DNA from: Micromonospora chokoriensis
GTDB lineage: Bacteria; Actinomycetota; Actinomycetes; Mycobacteriales; Micromonosporaceae
Direction: 5' to 3'
Length of the DNA: 64,000 bases
NCBI RefSeq assembly: GCF_000718555.1
Contig: NZ_JOAN01000026.1
Span: forward strand, 19,210-83,209
Numbering within the stretch: position 1 is the stretch's first letter; every line of letters starts with the position of its first letter. The position numbers were made by a program, and so were the translations under genes. The notes below the pieces were generated by a model. It was given only the letters and a program-made list of their open reading frames with translations, searched no databases and was not told the DNA's origin. Positions 4,890 to 12,843 of this stretch are shown piece after piece.

Positions 4890-5528
4890 GTGTCAAGTGT
4901 CCCCGCCTTCAAGCGCCTGCCGCGCGCCGTTCGCGAGCAGCAGATGCTCGACGCGGCCGTCAAGGTCTTCTCCCGACGTGGCTTCCACGCCGCCAGCATG
5001 GACGAGATCGCCGAGGACGCCGGCATCTCCAAACCCATGGTGTACGCGTACCTCGGCACCAAGGAGGAGCTCTTCGTCGCCTGCCTGCACCGGGAGGGCA
5101 CCCGGATGATGCAGGCCATCGCCGGGGCGGCGGCCCCCGACCTGCCGGCCGACGAGCGGCTCTGGCGCGGGTTGAAGGCGTTCTTCGGCTTCGTGGGCGC
5201 GCACCGGGATGGCTGGGCGGTGCTCTACCGGCAGGCCCGGGGCGAGCAGCCGTTCGCCGGCGAGTTGGCCACCATGCGGGCCCGGCTGGTCGAGGTGGTC
5301 GCCGGGATGCTCGACCACGCGCTGCGCGCCGAGGGTCGCGAGATCGCCGCCGTCGACCTGGAGGTCGTCGCGTACGCCCTGGTCGGCGCGACCGAGTCGC
5401 TGGCGGACTGGCTCGCGGACCACCCGGAGGCCGAGCCGGAGAAGACGGCCACCCGGATGATGAACGTGGCCTGGCTCGGTGCCGCCCAGCTCCTGCACGG
5501 CGTCACCTGGCGCCCCCCGGCCGACTGA
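4890..5528 (+). CDS. TetR-family regulator, probable fatty-acid regulon repressor
   Basis: A 212-residue TetR-type dimeric repressor. The N-terminal helix-turn-helix runs through REQQMLDAAVKVFSRRGF and SMDEIAEDAGISKPMVYAYLGTKEEL, followed by an alpha-helical ligand domain. The GTG at 4890 (VSSVPAFKRLP) is preferred: the longer upstream reading crosses the operator and gives non-conserved sequence. It is divergent from the SCP2-acyl-CoA dehydrogenase operon with a near-perfect palindrome between, so autoregulation plus repression of that operon is likely. An acyl-CoA ligand is inferred from context only. Its 3' end overlaps the convergent DedA gene by 26 bases. Confidence 0.88.
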   Translation: MSSVPAFKRLPRAVREQQMLDAAVKVFSRRGFHAASMDEIAEDAGISKPMVYAYLGTKEELFVACLHREGTRMMQAIAGAAAPDLPADERLWRGLKAFFGFVGAHRDGWAVLYRQARGEQPFAGELATMRARLVEVVAGMLDHALRAEGREIAAVDLEVVAYALVGATESLADWLADHPEAEPEKTATRMMNVAWLGAAQLLHGVTWRPPAD

Positions 5529-6207
5529 CGGCCCCGGCGGAGACAGCGTCGGCGCCCGGTTCGCCGGCCCGCGCCGCACGGCGCTGGTGCCCACGCAGCC
5601 AGCGGACCACCTCGACGATCAACGTCACCGTCAGGGCGAGGCCCAGACCCAGCAGGAGACCACGTAGCGGGTCCTGCTCGAAGGCCAACCCGCCGACGTA
5701 GCCGACCAGCGCGGAGTAGAGCCCCCACGAGCCGGCGGCGAGCGCGTCGAAGGCCAGGAACCGTCGCCGGGGATAGTGCACCGCGCCCATGGTGAGGGTG
5801 ACCGCGGTCCGACCGCCCGGCACGTAACGGGCCACGGTGAGGATCAGGCCGCCGCGCGTCGCGATCCCCCGGCGGGCCCAGTCGGCGGCGGCCCGACGCC
5901 GACCGTCGGGCGGCAGCCGGTCGAGCAGTCGCGCTCCACCGGCCCGCCCGATGGCGTACGAGATGTGGTCGCCGACCAGTGCCCCGGCGGCGGCTACCAG
6001 GATCACCCCGGGCAGGTACGGCGCGCCGGAGGCCGCGAACACCCCTGCGGTGATCACCGCCGTCTCGCTCGGCACCACGGGAAAGAAGCCGTCGAGCACC
6101 GCGATCGCGAAGATCGCCAGGTACACCCAGGGCGAGGACATCGTGTCGTGCAGCAGGTCGAGTAGATCCATGATCCCGATGCTGGTGTGGACGGCGGCTC
6201 CTGCCAT
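5503..6207 (-). CDS. DedA-family membrane protein (first copy)
   Basis: A 234-residue polytopic inner-membrane protein of the DedA/SNARE-associated (VTT) family, which includes undecaprenyl-phosphate and phospholipid flippases. Family marks are the re-entrant FFPVVPSETAVITAG and GDHISYAIGR, then the second re-entrant ARYVPGGRTAVTLTMGAVHYPRRRF, and C-terminal transmembrane helices followed by a basic Ala/Arg-rich tail. The first residues before MDLLDLLHD may not be translated. A paralogue of similar length lies at 8144-8773, on the other side of a two-component system. Transport substrate cannot be read from sequence. Confidence 0.88.
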   Translation of the reverse strand: MAGAAVHTSIGIMDLLDLLHDTMSSPWVYLAIFAIAVLDGFFPVVPSETAVITAGVFAASGAPYLPGVILVAAAGALVGDHISYAIGRAGGARLLDRLPPDGRRRAAADWARRGIATRGGLILTVARYVPGGRTAVTLTMGAVHYPRRRFLAFDALAAGSWGLYSALVGYVGGLAFEQDPLRGLLLGLGLALTVTLIVEVVRWLRGHQRRAARAGEPGADAVSAGAVSRPGGAR

Positions 6208-6329
6208 CGGCCAGTGGTCAGGCGGGCACCACTACTTAGGTATCGGCCAGCCCGGACGGCGGGTAGGGGTCTTCCCCCAGCTCACCCGGGTCCGGCCGGG
6301 TGGGGCGGACCGATTCGTCCGGGGAGCCC

Positions 6330-6335
6330 TACGCT
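6330..6335 (+). promoter_or_regulatory. Candidate -10 box for a leaderless histidine kinase mRNA
   Basis: TACGCT ends six bases before the GTG at 6342 and no ribosome-binding site sits between them, the pattern of a leaderless actinobacterial transcript. No convincing -35. Confidence 0.35.
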
Positions 6336-6341
6336 CGCTGC

Positions 6342-7493
6342 GTGGCCTCCAGCGCCGCCGCCCTGCGGCGGGTCGTCCAGCGGTACGGCCCGCTGCTGCT
6401 CGCCGTGACGGTCGCGACGGCGGTCTGGGCCAGCGCGAGCGGTGACATCGGGGTCCGCTCACCGCTGCCGGGTGTCGTCCCGCTGGTGCTCGCGGTGCTC
6501 TCCGGTTGGGCTGCCGCCACGTTCCGGACCCGCCGGTGGCCGTTGTTCCTGGCCGCGGCGGTCGGCTGGTTGGTGCTCGCCGCCGGGGCGGCCGGGGTGG
6601 TCGCCTCGTACCAGGCTGGTCTGCGGCTGCGTGGTCGGCGGCTCGCCGGGTTCCTCGCCGGTGCGGCCGGGGTGCTGGCCGGCGGGGTGCTGATCGGGCT
6701 GGCGGTGGGCGGCGTACGCCGGATGACCACCGCAGCCACCGGCAACGTGCTGATGCTCGCCGTCTGTCTGGTCGGACTTCCGCTGGTCTTCGGCCTCTGG
6801 GTGCGGGCACGTCGGGACACGCTCGCGGCTCTGCGGGACCGGGCCGAGCGGCTGGAACGCGAGCAGGAGGCCCGCGCTGACCGGGTCCGTGCCGAGGAAC
6901 GGACCCGGATCGCCCGGGAGATGCACGACGTGGTGGCGCACCGGGTCTCGTTGATGGTGGTGCACGCCGGGGCGCTGGAGGTGACCGCCAAGGACTCGGC
7001 GACCGTCGAGGCCGCCGCGCTGATCCGTACTACCGGGCGGCAGGCGCTCACCGACCTGCGCGAGGTGCTGGGCGTGTTGCGACAGGCCGGTCCGAGTGTG
7101 GTGCCGGAGCGCGGGCTCGGCGCGCTGGACGAGTTGATCGGGGAGTCCCGCGCCGCCGGGCTGCGGGTGGCCCGGCGGGATGAGGGCGTTGCGCCGGCTA
7201 TACCGGCGACCGTGGGGCGCACCGCGTACCGGGTGGTCCGGGAGGCGCTGACCAACGTGCGCAAACACGCCGCCGACGCCGAGACGGTGGTCTGCCTGCG
7301 CTACCTGCCCGACGGGTTGGAGGTGCTGGTGCGTAACGGGCCGTCGGAGGGCGGGGCGGCGCTGCCCGGTGCCGGGCAGGGGCTGCTCGGGTTGCGCGAG
7401 CGGGTGGAGCTGCTCGGCGGCCGACTGGAGGCGTTGCCCGTGGGCGGCGGTTTCCTGGTCCGGGCCCTGATCCCGCTGGCGGGTGCGGCGTGA
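6342..7493 (+). CDS. Two-component sensor histidine kinase, NarL/DesK type
   Basis: A 383-residue membrane sensor kinase. Four to five hydrophobic segments fill the first ~145 residues with almost no extracytoplasmic loop, followed by a coiled stretch (RERLEREQEARADRVRAEERTR-like) and the HisKA_3 box AREMHDVVAHR with phosphoacceptor His195. The C-terminal ATPase domain has the N box (EALTNVRKHA) and the G box (GQGLLGLRERVELLGG). GTG 6342 is preferred over an in-frame GTG at 6300 because a TACGCT -10-like box lies between them. Its stop overlaps the response regulator start by 4 bases (GTGA). The signal sensed is unknown; membrane state is a guess from the lack of a sensor loop and the flanking DedA genes. 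Confidence 0.9.
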   Translation: MASSAAALRRVVQRYGPLLLAVTVATAVWASASGDIGVRSPLPGVVPLVLAVLSGWAAATFRTRRWPLFLAAAVGWLVLAAGAAGVVASYQAGLRLRGRRLAGFLAGAAGVLAGGVLIGLAVGGVRRMTTAATGNVLMLAVCLVGLPLVFGLWVRARRDTLAALRDRAERLEREQEARADRVRAEERTRIAREMHDVVAHRVSLMVVHAGALEVTAKDSATVEAAALIRTTGRQALTDLREVLGVLRQAGPSVVPERGLGALDELIGESRAAGLRVARRDEGVAPAIPATVGRTAYRVVREALTNVRKHAADAETVVCLRYLPDGLEVLVRNGPSEGGAALPGAGQGLLGLRERVELLGGRLEALPVGGGFLVRALIPLAGAA

Positions 7494-8131
7494 TTCGCGT
7501 GGTGGTGGTCGACGACGAGCAACTGGTCCGCGCCGGATTGCGGCTGATCTTGGAGGCGGCGGAGGACATCACTGTCGTCGGTGAGGCAGCGGACGGCGTC
7601 GGCGCGCTGGAACAGACCCACCGGTTACGCCCCGACGTGGTGCTGCTCGACGTGCGGATGCCGGGCGTCGACGGGCTGACCGCCGCGCCGGAGGTGGTCG
7701 CCGCCGGCGCGAAGGTGATCATGTTGACCACCTTCGACCTCGACGATTACGTGCACCGGGCGCTGCGGGTCGGCGCGGTCGGCTTCCTGCTCAAGGACAC
7801 CCCGCCCCGCGACTTGGCCGCCGCCGTTCGTACGGTGGCCGCCGGGAACGCCATGCTCGCCCCGACGGTGACCCGGCGCTTGCTCGATTCCTTCGCCGAG
7901 CGTGGTCCAGCCCGCCGGGACGCTGCTCGTGAGCGGCTCGCCCTGCTCACCGCACGGGAGCTGGAGATCGTCCGGGAGGTGGCGCGCGGGCATGGCAACG
8001 CGGAGATCGCCCGACGGCTGACCATGAGCGAAGCCACCGTGAAGGCACACGTCAGCCGAGCGCTGGCGAAACTCCAGGTGGGTAACCGGGTGCAGCTGGC
8101 CATCCTGGTGCACGACGCCGACCTGCTGTGA
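7490..8131 (+). CDS. NarL/FixJ-family response regulator
   Basis: A 213-residue DNA-binding response regulator paired with the upstream kinase. The receiver domain has acidic residues D8/D9, phosphoacceptor D54 in PDVVLLDVRMPG, and the conserved Lys in FLLKDTPP. The C-terminal LuxR-type helix-turn-helix reads LTARELEIVREVARGHGNAEIARRLTMSEATVKAHVSR. The start GTG overlaps the kinase stop by four bases. Target genes are not evident; it faces a convergent DedA gene 13 bases away. Confidence 0.93.
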   Translation: MIRVVVVDDEQLVRAGLRLILEAAEDITVVGEAADGVGALEQTHRLRPDVVLLDVRMPGVDGLTAAPEVVAAGAKVIMLTTFDLDDYVHRALRVGAVGFLLKDTPPRDLAAAVRTVAAGNAMLAPTVTRRLLDSFAERGPARRDAARERLALLTARELEIVREVARGHGNAEIARRLTMSEATVKAHVSRALAKLQVGNRVQLAILVHDADLL

Positions 8132-8143
8132 CGTGCCTGCCGG

Positions 8144-8773
8144 TCAGTGGCGGGAGGCGGCCCGGCGGTGCGCCCGACGGCGTAGCCACCGGATCCCCTC
8201 CAGCCCGAACGTGACGATCAGCGAGAGCCCCACGCCGACCAGCACGCCCTTCACCGGGTCACGTTCGAAGGCCAGCCCGCCGAAGTAGCCGAGCAGCCCG
8301 CAGTACAGCGCCCAGGTGACCGCTCCGACGCTGTCGTACAGCAGGAACGCCCGGCGGGGATAGCGCACCGCACCCATGGTCAGGGTGACGGCGGTCCGGC
8401 CGCCCGGCACGTACCGGGCGGTGGTCAGGATGATCCCGCCGCGCCGGTCCACCGCGCGCCGGGCCCACTCGGAGCTGGCCCGTCGGCGGCTGCCGTCGGG
8501 CAGTCGGGCCAGCCGGCGGGCGCCCCCGCCCTGCCCGATGGCGTAGGAGATGTGGTCGCCGACCAGCGCGCCGATGGCGGCGCTCACGATCACCAGGACC
8601 AGATTGGGATGCCCGCCGCTCGCCGAGAGCACGCCGGCGGTGATCACCGCTGCCTCGCCCGGCACCGCGGGGAAGAACGCGTCGACCGCGGTGAGCCCGA
8701 AGATCACCAGGTACACCCACGGCGACGTGACCGTCCCACGGAGGAGGTCGAGCAGGGCTTCCACACCCCCCAT
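8144..8773 (-). CDS. DedA-family membrane protein (second copy)
   Basis: A 209-residue paralogue of the protein at 5503-6207, sharing the FFPAVPGEAAVITAG re-entrant loop, GDHISYAIGQG, and ARYVPGGRTAVTLTMGAVRYPRR blocks. Probable membrane lipid transporter of the DedA/VTT superfamily. Two DedA genes bracketing one two-component system in inverted orientation suggest a local duplication around the regulatory pair, and a shared envelope theme. Stop and the response regulator stop are 12 bases apart, convergent. Confidence 0.88.
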   Translation of the reverse strand: MGGVEALLDLLRGTVTSPWVYLVIFGLTAVDAFFPAVPGEAAVITAGVLSASGGHPNLVLVIVSAAIGALVGDHISYAIGQGGGARRLARLPDGSRRRASSEWARRAVDRRGGIILTTARYVPGGRTAVTLTMGAVRYPRRAFLLYDSVGAVTWALYCGLLGYFGGLAFERDPVKGVLVGVGLSLIVTFGLEGIRWLRRRAHRRAASRH

Positions 8774-8826: not shown

Positions 8827-10089
8827 TCAGCCGGCGCGGGCCAGGGCCGCTGCGGCGAGCAGCGGGCCGTGCGTCCTCTTGTCGTCGGCGGTGGGGCCGT
8901 GTGAGGTAAGCACCACAGGTGTGTCCAGCTCCGCGCTCACCGCCTCGGCCCAGTCCGTCGGCGGGTCGTCATAGAGCGGCCGGGAGCGCAGCAGGCGGGC
9001 GGTGAGCGCGGCCTGCCGGTCCAGGTCGCCGGGCGGGCCCGGGGTGAGCCGGTCGCCTGTGTCGTAGCGGCGGCAGATCCGCAGGTCGGGACCGGCCAGG
9101 TCGAGATGGGTCAGCGCCAGGCCGTCGACGCCGCCAGCCGCGGCGAGGGCGTACCGGTGGGCGACCGCGTCGAAGTGGCCGAACCGGAAACGACCCTGCC
9201 ACGGGTTCGTGGCGTTGTGATGGTCGGTGAACGGCAGGCTCGGGTCCTCGGTCACCAACGGACCGTGCCCGTGCCGGGTGGTGACCGTGCGGAGCACCCC
9301 GATCCGGGTCACGTCGCCGGGTCGGCCAGCCTCGGCGAGCAGGCTGTCGACGTTGGCGAACGTGGTGGTGCTCCAGGTCGTGTACGGGTGGAAGCCGTGC
9401 CACTCGTCGAGCAGCACCCCCTGGGCGCCCTCGAAGACACAGGTCCCGGTGCGCAGTGCGCCGGCGAGCCAGCTGCCGTCGACGATGGCGACCCGCTCGG
9501 CGAACCCGGCGAACGCGGGCAGGCAGTCGTCGATCGGTGGTGCGTCCAGCGGGCCCAGCTCGGCGGTCAGCCGGTCCCGCAGGACGGTCAGCCGGCGGCG
9601 CAGCACCGCTGGGCGGTGACAGTCGGCGACCCGGGGTGCGTCGTCCGGGTGGGCGAGACCGTACGCGACGGCCTCACCCACCCCCAGCCCGCAGGAGCCG
9701 TGCCGGTCGGCTCCCCGGGCGATTTCCCGGGCCCGGTTGGCGGCCCGGTGGTACGGGGTGGCGAGTAGCGCGTCGGAGTCGACGGTCAGTCGGTCGAGGG
9801 CGTCGGGCACCCCGACGGTGGCGAGATGGTCGGCCTCGGCAGCCAGCGCCAGCGGGTCCACCACCACGTGCCGGGCCAGGTGCGTACGGACACCGGGATG
9901 GAACGTGCCGGCGCCGAACTGCGCGAACGTGTGGTGCCGCCCGTCGCGCAGCACGACGTTGTGTGCCGCCTGCGCGCCCCCGTTGAAGCGGACCACCGTG
10001 TGAACGGGACGGGTGGCGCAGAGCCAGTCCACCACCGTGCCCTTGCCCGCGTCGCCGTAGCCGAGGTCGACCACCGCCAGATGACTCAC
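8827..10089 (-). CDS. PurA-like adenylosuccinate synthetase paralogue
   Basis: A 420-residue member of the adenylosuccinate synthetase fold (GTP-dependent ligases that join an amino acid to a 6-oxopurine). The P-loop GYGDAGKG (residues 10-17) keeps the catalytic Asp13 and Lys16 but has Ala for the usual Glu14. The second catalytic His is kept (GGAQAAHN, His43), as are GSCGLGVGEA and FEGAQGVLLDEWHG. The aspartate/IMP-recognition loop, TTGRRRRTGW-like in PurA, reads NATNPWQGRFRFGH here. So the enzyme looks active but with changed substrate. It is the last gene of a four-gene operon: its GTG start overlaps the VWA stop by four bases. It is probably not the housekeeping PurA. Reaction product is unknown. 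Confidence 0.8.
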   Translation of the reverse strand: MSHLAVVDLGYGDAGKGTVVDWLCATRPVHTVVRFNGGAQAAHNVVLRDGRHHTFAQFGAGTFHPGVRTHLARHVVVDPLALAAEADHLATVGVPDALDRLTVDSDALLATPYHRAANRAREIARGADRHGSCGLGVGEAVAYGLAHPDDAPRVADCHRPAVLRRRLTVLRDRLTAELGPLDAPPIDDCLPAFAGFAERVAIVDGSWLAGALRTGTCVFEGAQGVLLDEWHGFHPYTTWSTTTFANVDSLLAEAGRPGDVTRIGVLRTVTTRHGHGPLVTEDPSLPFTDHHNATNPWQGRFRFGHFDAVAHRYALAAAGGVDGLALTHLDLAGPDLRICRRYDTGDRLTPGPPGDLDRQAALTARLLRSRPLYDDPPTDWAEAVSAELDTPVVLTSHGPTADDKRTHGPLLAAAALARAG

Positions 10090-11045
10090 AGTCGGGTCAC
10101 CCCGCCAGTGGTGTCGTGGAACGCCGGCAGCGTCGACACCTCGGCCCGCCGGTCCCGGCCGAGGCGGGCCAGCGCCTTCGACACGGTGCCGGTGGCGGCG
10201 GAGCCGGCGCGGTCCAGGTCGCGCAGGCCCTCGTCCAGGTCGATGGCCTGTTCGCCGAGGCCGATGGTGAGCGCGATGGTCTCGCAGACCGCGTCGAGGT
10301 CGTCGAGCACGACGGTGTTCTGCCCGAGCAGGTCCCGCCAGAAGTCGAGCACCTTGGCGTTGCCGGCGTAGTGGCTGCCGGCGGGGAGCAGATAGTAGGT
10401 GTCCCAGCGGCGGGTCACCTCGTCGACGACCTGCCGCAGCGGCACGTCCTCGGTCAGGTCGTCGCCGATCAGGCCGGCCACCTCCCGGGCCTTCACCCGC
10501 TGGTACGCCAGCTCGTCGCCGATGATGAACAGGTAGCCGCGCCGGCCGCGCTTCTCCCAGCTGTCGGTGACGGTGTGCCGGGCCATGAAGTACATGGCCA
10601 GCTCGTACGACTCGCTCATCTGCCCGCCGCCACCGCCCTCCAGCACGATCCGGCCGAGGTCGTCGTCCATCCGGTTGTCCGACTCGAACTGGCCCACCTG
10701 CAAGGGCACCCGGTCGCAGGTGGCATCACCGATGGCGCCGAACATGATCTGCGGGTCGCTGGCGTACCCCTGCCGTTGCAGCAACCCGAGCAGTTGCGGC
10801 AGCTTGGTCTGCAGGACGCGCGGCACGTTGCGCATCGAGCCGGTCACGTCGAAGAGCACCGCGACGGGGGTCGAGCGCGGGTGCTCGTCGGAGTCGCGGC
10901 TCTCGCGCATCGCGTCGCGGGGGTCGAGGTCGGGGTGCACGGTGCGTGCCCCGCTGTCGCTGTAGGAGAAGGCGCTCTTGCCGGTGGACCGGCGGTAGCG
11001 GTCGGCGGCGTCGTACACGTCGGTGGACCAGATTCCACTGCCCAT
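10086..11045 (-). CDS. VWA-domain protein of the NrtR operon
   Basis: A 319-residue cytoplasmic protein (no signal peptide or membrane segment) with a von Willebrand factor A fold. The metal-site motif is FDVTGSM (residues 65-71), a DxTGS variant of the usual DxSxS, at the end of a beta strand as expected. Further on, FIIGDELAYQRV gives the third metal-site aspartate. The N-terminal ~60 residues are polar. Such proteins normally act as metal-dependent interaction modules, often with ATPases or kinases. Start lies nine bases after the pseudokinase stop; stop overlaps the PurA-like gene. Function is not known. Confidence 0.8.
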   Translation of the reverse strand: MGSGIWSTDVYDAADRYRRSTGKSAFSYSDSGARTVHPDLDPRDAMRESRDSDEHPRSTPVAVLFDVTGSMRNVPRVLQTKLPQLLGLLQRQGYASDPQIMFGAIGDATCDRVPLQVGQFESDNRMDDDLGRIVLEGGGGGQMSESYELAMYFMARHTVTDSWEKRGRRGYLFIIGDELAYQRVKAREVAGLIGDDLTEDVPLRQVVDEVTRRWDTYYLLPAGSHYAGNAKVLDFWRDLLGQNTVVLDDLDAVCETIALTIGLGEQAIDLDEGLRDLDRAGSAATGTVSKALARLGRDRRAEVSTLPAFHDTTGGVTRL

Positions 11046-11054
11046 GACAGCTCC

Positions 11055-12023
11055 TTAGGGGGTGAGGGTGAAGGGTCGGAAGGTGCGTGGCCCGTAGAGC
11101 CGGTCCAGCACCTGGTCTAGTTCGCGCAGCAGCAGCCAGGCGTCGTCGGGCCGCTTGGCCAGGGACCGCTGCCGGCAGCCACGCGCGAAGGCGTCCAGCT
11201 CGCGGGGCGCCCGCGGCCCCATCAGCCAGCTCATGCAGTGGCTGGCCATCGCGATATCGGTGCCCGGGCCGCAGGGCCGCTTCTCGACGACCTCCTCCGG
11301 ATCCCAGCCGTGACCGGGCACGAGCGCCGGGATCGTGCTCCCGATGGCTGCGGAGAAGCACCAGTCGATCAGCACCACGCCGTGGGCGTCCGGCTCGATC
11401 AGCACGTGTCGCGGCAGGACCGCGCCGTGCACCACGCCCGCCCGGTGGGCCAGGCCGAGCACCACCAGCAGCCGCCGCCACATCCAGGCCACGTCCCGGG
11501 CGTCCAACCCGTCGGGGTACGCGCGCCGCACCTCGTCGAGGTCGTGCAGGCCGGGTGCGGTGGCGAGCACGTTGATCCGCCGTTCCGCGCCGGTCGCGGT
11601 GTCCCGATGCCGGAAGGCGTCGACGAGCCGGGGCACGTACGGCAGGTAGCGCGGGTCGCCGCGCTCGGCGATGGTGCGCAGGGCGTGCGCCTCGCGGGCC
11701 ATCAGGTCGTTGTCGCCGGGCCGGCGGGGGAGCTTGAGTAGCCGGTCGTCGCCGACGTCGTAGAGGTCGGCCAGGTCGCCGGAGTGGGCCAGCGCACCGA
11801 GGCGGTAGTCCCCGACGACGGTGACCTGCCGGGCCTTCCACCGGGTGGTGACGTTGATGAACGCTTCGGTCGCTTCGGCGCGTACCGCCGGGTCGGTCGG
11901 CAGGCGATCGGGGTGCAGGGCCGCGACCAGCTCGCGGTAGCGGTGGGCCGGCTGGTCGACGCCGAACAGGTCGGCGTCGGTGCGGGCGGCCGCGACCAGG
12001 CGGATGGCCTCCGTGGTCCTCAC
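11055..12023 (-). CDS. J-domain fused to a protein-kinase-like domain (probable pseudokinase)
   Basis: A 322-residue fusion. Residues ~5-65 form a J-domain-like helical hairpin with the HPD motif at 37-39 (ALHPDR), the Hsp70-stimulating signature. From ~70 a kinase-like fold follows: Lys97 (LLKLP) and Glu111 fit the ATP-binding salt bridge. The catalytic loop reads VVHGAVLPRHVLI, so the HRD-type aspartate is Ala201, and the metal-binding Asn is His. The DFG position is DWC with Asp220 kept. It may bind nucleotide yet lack phosphotransfer. GTG start overlaps the NrtR stop by four bases. It is probably an adaptor or chaperone-recruiting regulator in this operon; that role is inference. Confidence 0.75.
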   Translation of the reverse strand: MRTTEAIRLVAAARTDADLFGVDQPAHRYRELVAALHPDRLPTDPAVRAEATEAFINVTTRWKARQVTVVGDYRLGALAHSGDLADLYDVGDDRLLKLPRRPGDNDLMAREAHALRTIAERGDPRYLPYVPRLVDAFRHRDTATGAERRINVLATAPGLHDLDEVRRAYPDGLDARDVAWMWRRLLVVLGLAHRAGVVHGAVLPRHVLIEPDAHGVVLIDWCFSAAIGSTIPALVPGHGWDPEEVVEKRPCGPGTDIAMASHCMSWLMGPRAPRELDAFARGCRQRSLAKRPDDAWLLLRELDQVLDRLYGPRTFRPFTLTP

Positions 12024-12772
12024 CGCACCGTCTCCTCGCGGGCGGGGCGCAGCAGCGCCGGGTGCAGCAGGCGGGCGTCGCCGGCCCGGTAGAGCCGGGC
12101 GCGGGGGCCGCCTCGGGCACCACCGCGCTCGGTGCTGGCGCCCGTGCTCTCCACGAAGCCCGGCACGGAGAGCACCTTGCGGTGGAAGTTGCCGGCGTGC
12201 AGCGGATGCCCCCAGACCGTCTCGTAGACGGCGCGCAGCTCGCTGATCGTGAACTCGGCGGCGAGGAAGCGCGTGGCGAGCGGGGTGTACTCCAGCTTGG
12301 AGCGGGCTCGTTCCAGCGCGTCGTCGATGACGCGGCCGTGGTCGAAGGCGAGCTGTCGGCTGGTCAACGCGGTCACCGGCAGCCAGATCGCCTCGTCGGC
12401 GTCGCTGCCGGCGGCCGGATCCGGCAGGTCGGGGGCGAACGCGAGGTGCGCGATCGAGACGACCCGCATTCGCGGGTCACGGTCGGGGGCGCCATAGCTG
12501 CCCAACTGCTCCAGGTGTACGCGCAGCAGCGTCTCGCCGCCGAGCCCGGTCTCCTCGGCAAGCTCCCGGCGGGCGCCAGCGGTCAGGTCCTCGTCGGGGC
12601 GGACGAAACCACCGGGCAGCGCCCAGTGCCCCGCGAAGGGTGCCTCGCCACGCCGGATCAGCAGCAGGTGCAGTGCGCCGTCGCGGATGGTCAGCGCCAC
12701 CACGTCGACTGTCACCGCGACCGACGGGTAGGCCCGGGGGTCGTACGCGGCCAGGAACTCCTGCTCGTTCAT
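12020..12772 (-). CDS. NrtR-type Nudix-winged-helix transcription regulator
   Basis: A 250-residue protein in the NrtR arrangement: an N-terminal Nudix domain (~15-160) and a C-terminal winged helix (TISELRAVYETVWGHPLHAGNFHRKV). NrtR proteins sense ADP-ribose or related NAD metabolites and repress NAD-linked genes. The Nudix box here is complete (GGFVRPDEDLTAG then ARRELAEETGL), so hydrolysis is possible. It is the first gene of the operon; a 16-bp tandem repeat lies directly upstream of the ATG and is a natural operator. The C-terminal ~45 residues are a Gly/Arg-rich tail. Unusually, the operon holds no NAD biosynthesis gene. Confidence 0.85.
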   Translation of the reverse strand: MNEQEFLAAYDPRAYPSVAVTVDVVALTIRDGALHLLLIRRGEAPFAGHWALPGGFVRPDEDLTAGARRELAEETGLGGETLLRVHLEQLGSYGAPDRDPRMRVVSIAHLAFAPDLPDPAAGSDADEAIWLPVTALTSRQLAFDHGRVIDDALERARSKLEYTPLATRFLAAEFTISELRAVYETVWGHPLHAGNFHRKVLSVPGFVESTGASTERGGARGGPRARLYRAGDARLLHPALLRPAREETVR

Positions 12773-12780
12773 CGCATCTC

Positions 12781-12812
12781 TCTCACTCTGAGAACATCTC
12801 GCTCTGAGAACA
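12781..12812 (-). promoter_or_regulatory. Tandem 16-bp direct repeat upstream of the NrtR operon
   Basis: On the coding strand two head-to-tail copies, TGTTCTCAGAGCGAGA and TGTTCTCAGAGTGAGA, differ at one base and abut exactly. They end nine bases before the ATG at 12772. A possible -10 (TAGGTT) lies just upstream, so a bound protein would block transcription. Best read as the regulator's own operator. Confidence 0.65.
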
Positions 12813-12843
12813 ACCTAGCGTAGAAGTGCGCGCCTGCCAAGGG

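Follow-up and report, generated by a model that had tools for sequence, protein, structure and literature searches.

What is a relative of adenylosuccinate synthetase (PurA) doing in a compact operon with a Nudix regulator, a J-domain protein and a VWA protein? The question is raised by a 64,000-nt stretch of DNA of the soil actinomycete Micromonospora chokoriensis (contig NZ_JOAN01000026.1, positions 19,210 to 83,209; this whole stretch is called the window below). A sequence-only reading of the window had proposed a four-gene operon, and its position is borne out, with all four open reading frames (ORFs) on the minus strand:

12020..12772, minus strand: Nudix-winged-helix regulator (NrtR/AraR-like), probable autorepressor; Pfam Nudix PF00293 (1.4e-21) and NrtR winged helix NrtR_WHD PF21906 (1.2e-11), PHROGs Nudix 1.1e-24; nearest solved structures 5bs6 (AraR) and 3gz5 (NrtR)
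11055..12023, minus strand: J-domain plus kinase-fold pseudokinase; phrog_3043 "kinase" (3.9e-46)
10086..11045, minus strand: VWA protein; phrog_2971, a family of unknown function (1.1e-77); predicted model with an integrin-like VWA fold
8827..10089, minus strand: PurA-like enzyme with rebuilt substrate sites; Pfam Adenylsucc_synt PF00709 (1.1e-58), phrog_1211 "2-aminooxy adenylosuccinate synthetase" (1e-74)

The 4-base GTGA overlaps (12020-12023 and 10086-10089) are likewise seen in the sequence, as is the 9-base gap (11046-11054). The J and kinase domains of the second protein fall below the Pfam cut-offs, and the VWA protein has no convincing Pfam match. PHROGs, a phage library, matches all four genes, which was the first hint of a related set in phages. 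The proposal that the four genes form one conserved system is upheld, with 77 of 80 actinobacterial loci holding all four, and their co-occurrence is not due to chance. The PurA-like enzyme keeps the residues of purine activation, and its substrate contacts are exchanged. We read the locus as a self-regulated ligase-plus-chaperone module that would link an amine, not aspartate, with a purine that is not IMP; the reading is tentative, and we give it a little less than an even chance.

The co-occurrence counts come from genome and viral loci picked by the VWA protein, best-scoring and not random, with fetched flanks of up to 8 kb. Among the best 80 of at least 561 genome loci, all Actinomycetota by title, the loci short of the full set were two without the kinase and one without the regulator (kinase 78/80, regulator 79/80, PurA-like 80/80). 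The best 80 of at least 349 viral loci include the PurA-like gene in 79, the kinase in 65 and a Nudix gene in 4. These counts indicate that VWA and PurA-like are a constant pair, that the pseudokinase is the usual third member and that the regulator is an addition found mostly in bacteria. The sequence-only reading had staked its system idea on co-occurrence beyond close relatives, and the core extends far beyond them, to Actinomycetota, proteobacterial plasmids and mycobacteriophages. In tblastn searches the VWA protein matched 208 phage records (189 Mycobacterium, 10 Rhizobium, 6 Vibrio and 3 other), the PurA-like protein 225 and the kinase-like protein 191. None of the kinase-like matches came from Rhizobium or Vibrio phages, which carry VWA and PurA-like without a detected kinase. 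Among the PurA-like matches are a few from phages of Listeria, Staphylococcus, Salmonella and Acinetobacter, genera absent from the VWA tally.

The genes adjoin in Mycobacterium phage Sebata, where one small gene separates VWA and PurA-like. Plasmids of Rhodococcus, Tsukamurella, Variovorax, Acetobacter and Agrobacterium have the order kinase, VWA, PurA-like, with a Nudix gene near in four of the five. The triad is also present on a Rhizobium leguminosarum plasmid. A Methylorubrum megaplasmid has the VWA-PurA pair, with the kinase match about 35 kb away. Rhodovulum plasmid pRSMBA (locus L206) carries Nudix, kinase-like and VWA genes near an IS3 transposase, the VWA protein being annotated "TonB-dependent receptor"; no PurA-like gene was found on this plasmid. 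A rearranged order (Nudix, VWA, PurA-like, kinase) was seen in a 512-kb viral contig (L124, 5595-11396) and also in L125 and L126. Within the Micromonosporaceae the VWA gene is present in 20 of 44 genera (189 of 300 genomes); when genomes were drawn from the whole phylum, 2 of 396 had it, both of the window's genus. Two VWA protein searches each returned more than 7,000 relatives out of 8,000 scored candidates. In the listed rows each phage gene has an annotation of its own, most often "PurA-like adenylosuccinate synthetase", "serine/threonine kinase" or "hypothetical protein". A crude survey of ORFs of at least 80 aa, a length limit under which small genes may escape, found no further family in more than 4 of the 65 groups left after dereplication of 88 loci, except for an antisense ORF cluster in 11 of the 65, which reflects conserved coding.

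The PurA-like enzyme is not the housekeeping copy, as had been argued from the presence of purine genes elsewhere: purA is found at full strength (610 bits) on the same contig but outside the window (C26:16844-18094). It ends about 1.1 kb before window position 1 and lies about 10 kb from the PurA-like gene. The predicted PurA-like model (predicted local distance difference test score, pLDDT, 94.3) has E. coli PurA 1cg3 as its top Foldseek match, with a TM of about 0.8. We aligned the family in E. coli numbering. Rows of 300 aa or less were dropped; 188 cassette rows were aligned and 166 counted (80 actinobacterial including the window, 81 viral and 5 plasmid), the remainder being loci fetched twice or congeners. 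Four motifs stand out in the window protein:

10039..10056, minus strand: GDAGKG phosphate loop, D13 and K16 kept in the 166-row alignment
9673..9699, minus strand: GSCGLGVGE replacing GTTGRGIGP (T129 to Cys); Cys in 80/80 actinobacterial, 52/81 viral and 5/5 plasmid rows (137/166)
9268..9279, minus strand: TRHG replacing TRVG (V273 to His); His in 166/166 rows
9178..9201, minus strand: WQGRFRFG replacing the aspartate loop TTGRxRRxG; QGxxR, scored alignment-free, in 80/80 actinobacterial, 70/81 viral and 5/5 plasmid proteins (155/166)

In PurA, residues D13, H41 and Q224 serve purine phosphorylation, beyond the binding of nucleoside triphosphate (NTP). All three persist in the family. H41, Q224 and also R272 are kept in all 166 rows; D13 and K16 are each kept in 79 actinobacterial, 80 viral and 5 plasmid rows (164/166, the two D13 misses being gaps). 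T239 (80 actinobacterial, 78 viral and 5 plasmid rows) and D333 (80, 79 and 5, or 164/166) are common to PurA and the PurA-like family too, together with the fold and the NTP loop. The two differ at the IMP-phosphate contacts N38, T129 and R143 and in the aspartate loop. N38 is Gln in 80 actinobacterial, 79 viral and 5 plasmid rows (164/166). Position 129, Cys in the window protein, is Val in 26 and Thr in 3 of the viral rows that lack Cys, and position 143 has no consensus (Arg in 1/80 actinobacterial rows). In the loop, T300 is Trp in all 80 actinobacterial rows (viral rows: Trp 39, Phe 25), T301 is Gln in 80 actinobacterial, 77 viral and 5 plasmid rows (162/166), and R303 aligns to a gap throughout. 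K331 is His or Cys in most rows.

A study of Helicobacter pylori PurA gives contacts for these positions (PMC11571797). There N37, T121, T230 and, from the neighbouring subunit, R135 contact the IMP phosphate, D12 contacts N1, R294 contacts the ribose 2'-OH, and R294 and R296 bound a sulphate. We equate N37, T121, T230, R135, D12, R294 and R296 with E. coli N38, T129, T239, R143, D13, R303 and R305, and we read the sulphate as marking the aspartate site. Set against these contacts, the residue pattern suggests that the activation chemistry is kept and that both substrate grips are altered. Retention of a PurA-type class of chemistry is well supported, although the substrates would be others.

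PurZ of the Z-phages phiVC8 and S-2L is likewise a PurA relative in phages, and the R303 position is altered in both families. However, phiVC8 PurZ, read by eye, has Ser13, Asn38 and a TTVT loop, whereas the PurA-like family has Asp, Gln and mostly WQG. Because residues 13 and 38 and the loop differ, the family is not PurZ. Ordinary PurZ membership was also rejected for the window protein, which has Asp and not Ser at position 13 and scores 38.7 bits on the NCBIfam PurZ model, whose cut-off is 300. Since the PurZ features are absent, it is doubtful that the phage copies deserve the name "2-aminooxy adenylosuccinate synthetase" given to them in GenBank and PHROG.

Three features describe the constant partner, the VWA protein:

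10836..10850, minus strand: metal ion-dependent adhesion site (MIDAS) motif DVTGS; D66, T68, G69 and S70 invariant in 34 aligned relatives
11013..11045, minus strand: conserved N-terminus MGSGIWSTDVY; Gly2 in 167/169 rows
10089..10106, minus strand: C-terminal tail ending Arg-Leu; RL end in 77/81 actinobacterial, 31/84 viral and 0/5 plasmid rows

The DxTGS metal site noted in the sequence-only reading is a conserved motif. The predicted model (pLDDT 84.5) matches integrin I-like domains and has both a Rossmann-like VWA fold and the MIDAS. The protein begins Met-Gly in 167 of 169 rows and in 117/120 and 115/120 proteins of two match lists, whereas the second residue varies in the regulator, the pseudokinase and the PurA-like enzyme. 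Residues 1-7 have no secondary structure in the model (pLDDT 66 for residues 1-10), and the last 24 residues (296-319) are below 50. The last residue is L, F, V or I in 78 of 81 actinobacterial, 70 of 84 viral and 1 of 5 plasmid rows. Judged by the aligned rows, the C-terminal end is conserved less than the N-terminal start.

The usual third member combines a J-domain with a kinase fold, and three of its motifs bear on activity:

11907..11915, minus strand: J-domain HPD triad; complete in 76/78 actinobacterial, 59/66 viral and 4/5 plasmid rows
11421..11429, minus strand: HGA replacing HRD/HGD, no catalytic Asp; Ala in 78/78 actinobacterial rows
11358..11366, minus strand: DWC replacing DFG; Asp in 77/78 actinobacterial, 30/66 viral and 0/5 plasmid rows

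The HPD triad identifies the J-domain, and the Pfam DnaJ score is below the cut-off. For the residue counts, rows of 240 aa or less were dropped (171/174 kept) and loci fetched twice were left out. The catalytic loop is dead as first described: the catalytic Asp of an active Ser/Thr kinase is found in 0/78 actinobacterial, 1/66 viral and 0/5 plasmid rows. At this position the 66 viral rows have Ala 38, Gly 21, Ser 4, Asn 2 and Asp 1, and the 5 plasmid rows Gly 3 and Ala 2. Lys97 and Glu111 are present in 78/78 actinobacterial rows and Asp220 in 77; the viral numbers are 38, 40 and 30 of 66.

The regulator gene and its upstream region contain the following:

12542..12610, minus strand: intact Nudix box; strict pattern in 66/79 full-length regulators, the window among them
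12835..12840, minus strand: -35-like hexamer TTGGCA; TTGnnn in 29/32 upstream regions
12812..12817, minus strand: -10-like hexamer TAGGTT; TAAGTT, TAGGTT or TACGTT in the same 29 regions
12797..12810, minus strand: operator-like copy 1, TTCTCAGAGCGAGA, by sequence pattern
12781..12794, minus strand: operator-like copy 2, TTCTCAGAGTGAGA, 16 bp from copy 1, by sequence pattern

The strict Nudix pattern used is GX5EX7REUXEEXGU, and it is present in the window regulator as predicted. In the 13 full-length regulators without it, some have a longer loop and some have lost the last Gly. The regulator scores 139 bits on the NCBIfam NtrR model (cut-off 400); among solved structures it matches AraR 5bs6 with 118 bits and NrtR 3gz5 with 108, and by sequence appears about equally close to the arabinose regulator and to NrtR. 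ADP-ribose, which the sequence-only reading implied as the ligand, is a candidate. Between the TAGGTT box and the regulator start, TTCTCAGAGYGAGA occurs twice, 16 bp apart. Among 32 upstream regions from Micromonospora and near kin, 29 have the promoter-like array (TTGnnn, TA[ACG]GTT and an operator 1 bp on); the spacer between the two boxes is 17 bp in 28 of these and 18 bp in the remaining one. A standard consensus promoter and terminator scan found nothing. At least one copy of TTCTYRNNNNGAG occurs in 64 of 79 upstream regions, compared with 38 of 7,900 stretches taken at random from these loci, and two or more operator-like sites in 30 of the 79. In the genome TTCTCANNNNGAG has 9 matches (reversed control 6), and the two at the window operon are the sole tandem pair. 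A wider regulon was considered on the nine matches and rejected; we read the pattern as local because in this genome the tandem pair occurs solely at the operon. The domain layout is common to NrtR/AraR regulators, but unlike theirs the window operon has tandem sites spaced 16 bp and unique to it in its genome. The simplest reading is a probable autorepressor of its own operon.

The module, its conservation, the residue changes and the operator-like pattern are established, and from them we propose the following for binding partners, substrates, product and biological role. The regulator would repress its own operon by binding the repeated sites just downstream of the promoter and would be released on binding a nucleotide ligand. 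The PurA-like enzyme would use an NTP, probably GTP, to phosphorylate the 6-oxygen of a hypoxanthine-type purine, and an amine would then displace the phosphate. The substrates of the enzyme would be new: an amine that is not aspartate, and a purine compound that the usual IMP 5'-phosphate contacts do not grip. As near-obligate partner, the VWA protein may present one substrate, or be one, through its Mg site and conserved ends, and the J-domain pseudokinase may serve as a docking adaptor that recruits host Hsp70 (DnaK).

Several observations weigh against this proposal. The loop alignment of the PurA-like family is ambiguous by one residue; the loop is one residue shorter, so the Arg found after it in 165 of 166 rows could match R305 or R306, and one aspartate-site arginine may be kept. 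Retention of T239 suggests that part of the phosphate site survives. In 62 viral loci with all three genes (median identities 39, 34 and 23%), protein distances are correlated (r = 0.86 for VWA-PurA, 0.91 for VWA-kinase and 0.92 for PurA-kinase; 999 permutations, p 0.001), but such co-variation can come from shared phage ancestry and is not proof of contact. One viral kinase-like row, as counted above, has Asp at the catalytic-loop position. A profile search of 15 viral records without a BLAST kinase found none in 14, several being fragments, and none in the one Rhizobium and the one Vibrio phage tested, which suggests that Hsp70 docking is not always needed. On the regulator side, the promoter and operator patterns were drawn up after inspecting the sequences, the operator-type count in the window is unremarkable (10 of 100 shuffles reach it), and the operator pattern is absent from 15 of 79 upstream regions.

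A more daring form of the proposal makes the VWA protein itself the amine substrate, its N-terminal Gly amine being joined by the PurA-like enzyme to C6 of the activated purine. Gly at position 2 should permit Met removal and leave a free N-terminal glycine. We consider this form because Met-Gly is conserved in the VWA protein alone, on a flexible arm, and the aspartate site is rebuilt; we know of no other case of a protein N-terminus with a purine nucleotide through an N6 bond, and we regard it as a long shot. If true, a protein N-terminus would carry a purine nucleotide by an N6 bond made with Hsp70 help, as a protein modification or a carrier system.

The enzyme could also feed a modified-nucleotide pathway, its product being a modified purine nucleotide in free form, perhaps a deoxynucleotide destined for DNA, with the VWA and J proteins merely stabilising or regulating it. 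PurZ sets a precedent: it makes dSMP from dGMP, and the distance between C2' and its residue at the R303 position is too great for a ribonucleotide to be stabilised (PMC8342488). The PurA-like family also lacks R303 in the alignment and its core is common in large phages, but Ser13 and Asn38 of PurZ stand against D13 and Gln38 here, and presence in so many Micromonosporaceae genomes does not suggest phage DNA modification. The genes DatZ, MazZ and DpoZ were not noticed among the families recurring in at least 4 groups, in a survey that was not a search aimed at them. We hold this pathway to be unlikely, at about one chance in five. Somewhat less probable still is a VWA-type machine for assembling or remodelling proteins, with the PurA-like protein as an NTPase switch that has lost its ligase function. 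Such machines have a viral parallel, since a MoxR-vWA pair is reported to be needed for archaeal virus tail assembly and has been proposed to act in building the virions of some jumbo phages (PMC7824862), and the module includes a J-domain adaptor. A switch freed from ligation does not fit the near-invariance of D13, H41 and Q224, and no AAA ATPase was noticed among recurring neighbours in the ORF survey. An ordinary spare copy of adenylosuccinate synthetase would share the fold and the Pfam family, as this protein does; yet its best NCBIfam PurA score is 149.8 bits against 402, under every PurA cut-off listed, its substrate residues are rebuilt, a true purA is present and the core is conserved in phages. 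On the score, the residues and the full-strength purA of the same contig we rejected the spare copy, which we consider extremely improbable.

The sequence-only reading had also envisaged action under stress or phage attack, by a system that makes and senses a nucleotide signal. Nudix regulators with vWA proteins are a theme of predicted conflict systems (PMC9503650), and uneven presence in the family (the 189 of 300 genomes) is in keeping with such a role. Conflict-gene hints are an AbiEii-type gene near the Acetobacter plasmid copy and, in 4 of 95 neighbour proteins, domains of the AAA_21 family, to which AbiEii-type proteins belong. These 95 (of 96 picked at 12 chosen actinobacterial loci, one at a locus edge being left out) gave scattered, mostly generic PADLOC matches that were not examined singly. 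At 1e-10, 52 PADLOC families matched; among the 25 listed, mad3 was found in 4 proteins, mad2 in 2, AriA in 2 and the others in 1 each, mostly as kinase models. Pfam matched 110 neighbour families, the 25 listed being mostly transporters, dehydrogenases, methyltransferases and regulators. For the four genes themselves, PADLOC matched the pseudokinase through kinase-fold models and Nudix weakly, which does not make up a known anti-phage system, and gave no match for the VWA or PurA-like proteins; Pfam, NCBIfam, PADLOC and PHROGs scans recognised no nuclease, membrane or toxin domain. Genomic context is not supportive of defence, and phages carry the same core. A role against phage is neither supported nor disproved by these results, and we judge a stress or anti-phage signalling system to be improbable, to about the same degree as the assembly machine.

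A further point against defence is the make-up of the flanks. Of 33 loci from Micromonospora and its very close kin (L022-L053 and L055), 32 (L053 excepted) share flanking genes with the window, many of them of fatty-acid type; three Asanoa loci have part of these flanks, and other genera have none but one weak response-regulator match. In the window, VTT/DedA-type membrane protein paralogues (5503-6207 and 8144-8773) lie on either side of a histidine kinase and response regulator pair (6300-8131), which was not found within the fetched flank in some Micromonospora loci. NMN-adenylyltransferase/Nudix genes lie near some phage copies (L173, 14882-16045; L020, 5673-6245). A link to NAD was considered on such genes, found in 4 of 65 groups and also near the copy of Rhizobium phage RHph_Y65, and was set aside as too weak.

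Two groups of described systems come closest. In the ADP-ribosylglycohydrolase-centred conflict systems, a Nudix-HTH regulator and a vWA chaperone share one operon, as here; unlike those systems, the four genes include no ADP-ribosylglycohydrolase, phosphatase, Macro or NADAR by Pfam, and have the PurA-like enzyme and J-pseudokinase instead (PMC9503650). In the vWA-based NTP-dependent conflict systems, too, actinobacterial vWA proteins are partnered by kinases or chaperones (PMC7159879). The words "adenylosuccinate" and "PurA" are absent from the main text of both papers. The phrase "PurA-like adenylosuccinate synthetase" is used in two phage genome announcements (PMC9476963, PMC11468179). No paper joining these components was found in the open-access literature, a scope with most subscription papers, preprints and supplements outside it, and for the literature searched the four-gene combination is undescribed.

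PurA is a textbook enzyme, and PurZ is the sole offshoot of it with a different job met in the present work; the PurA-like family is another. It has kept the key reaction residues and exchanged the substrate grips, and it stands nearly always beside a VWA protein in bacteria and large phages. The identity of its product would reveal either a modified nucleotide or a protein modification of a new type, and it would give a function to a gene set carried by many laboratory phages.

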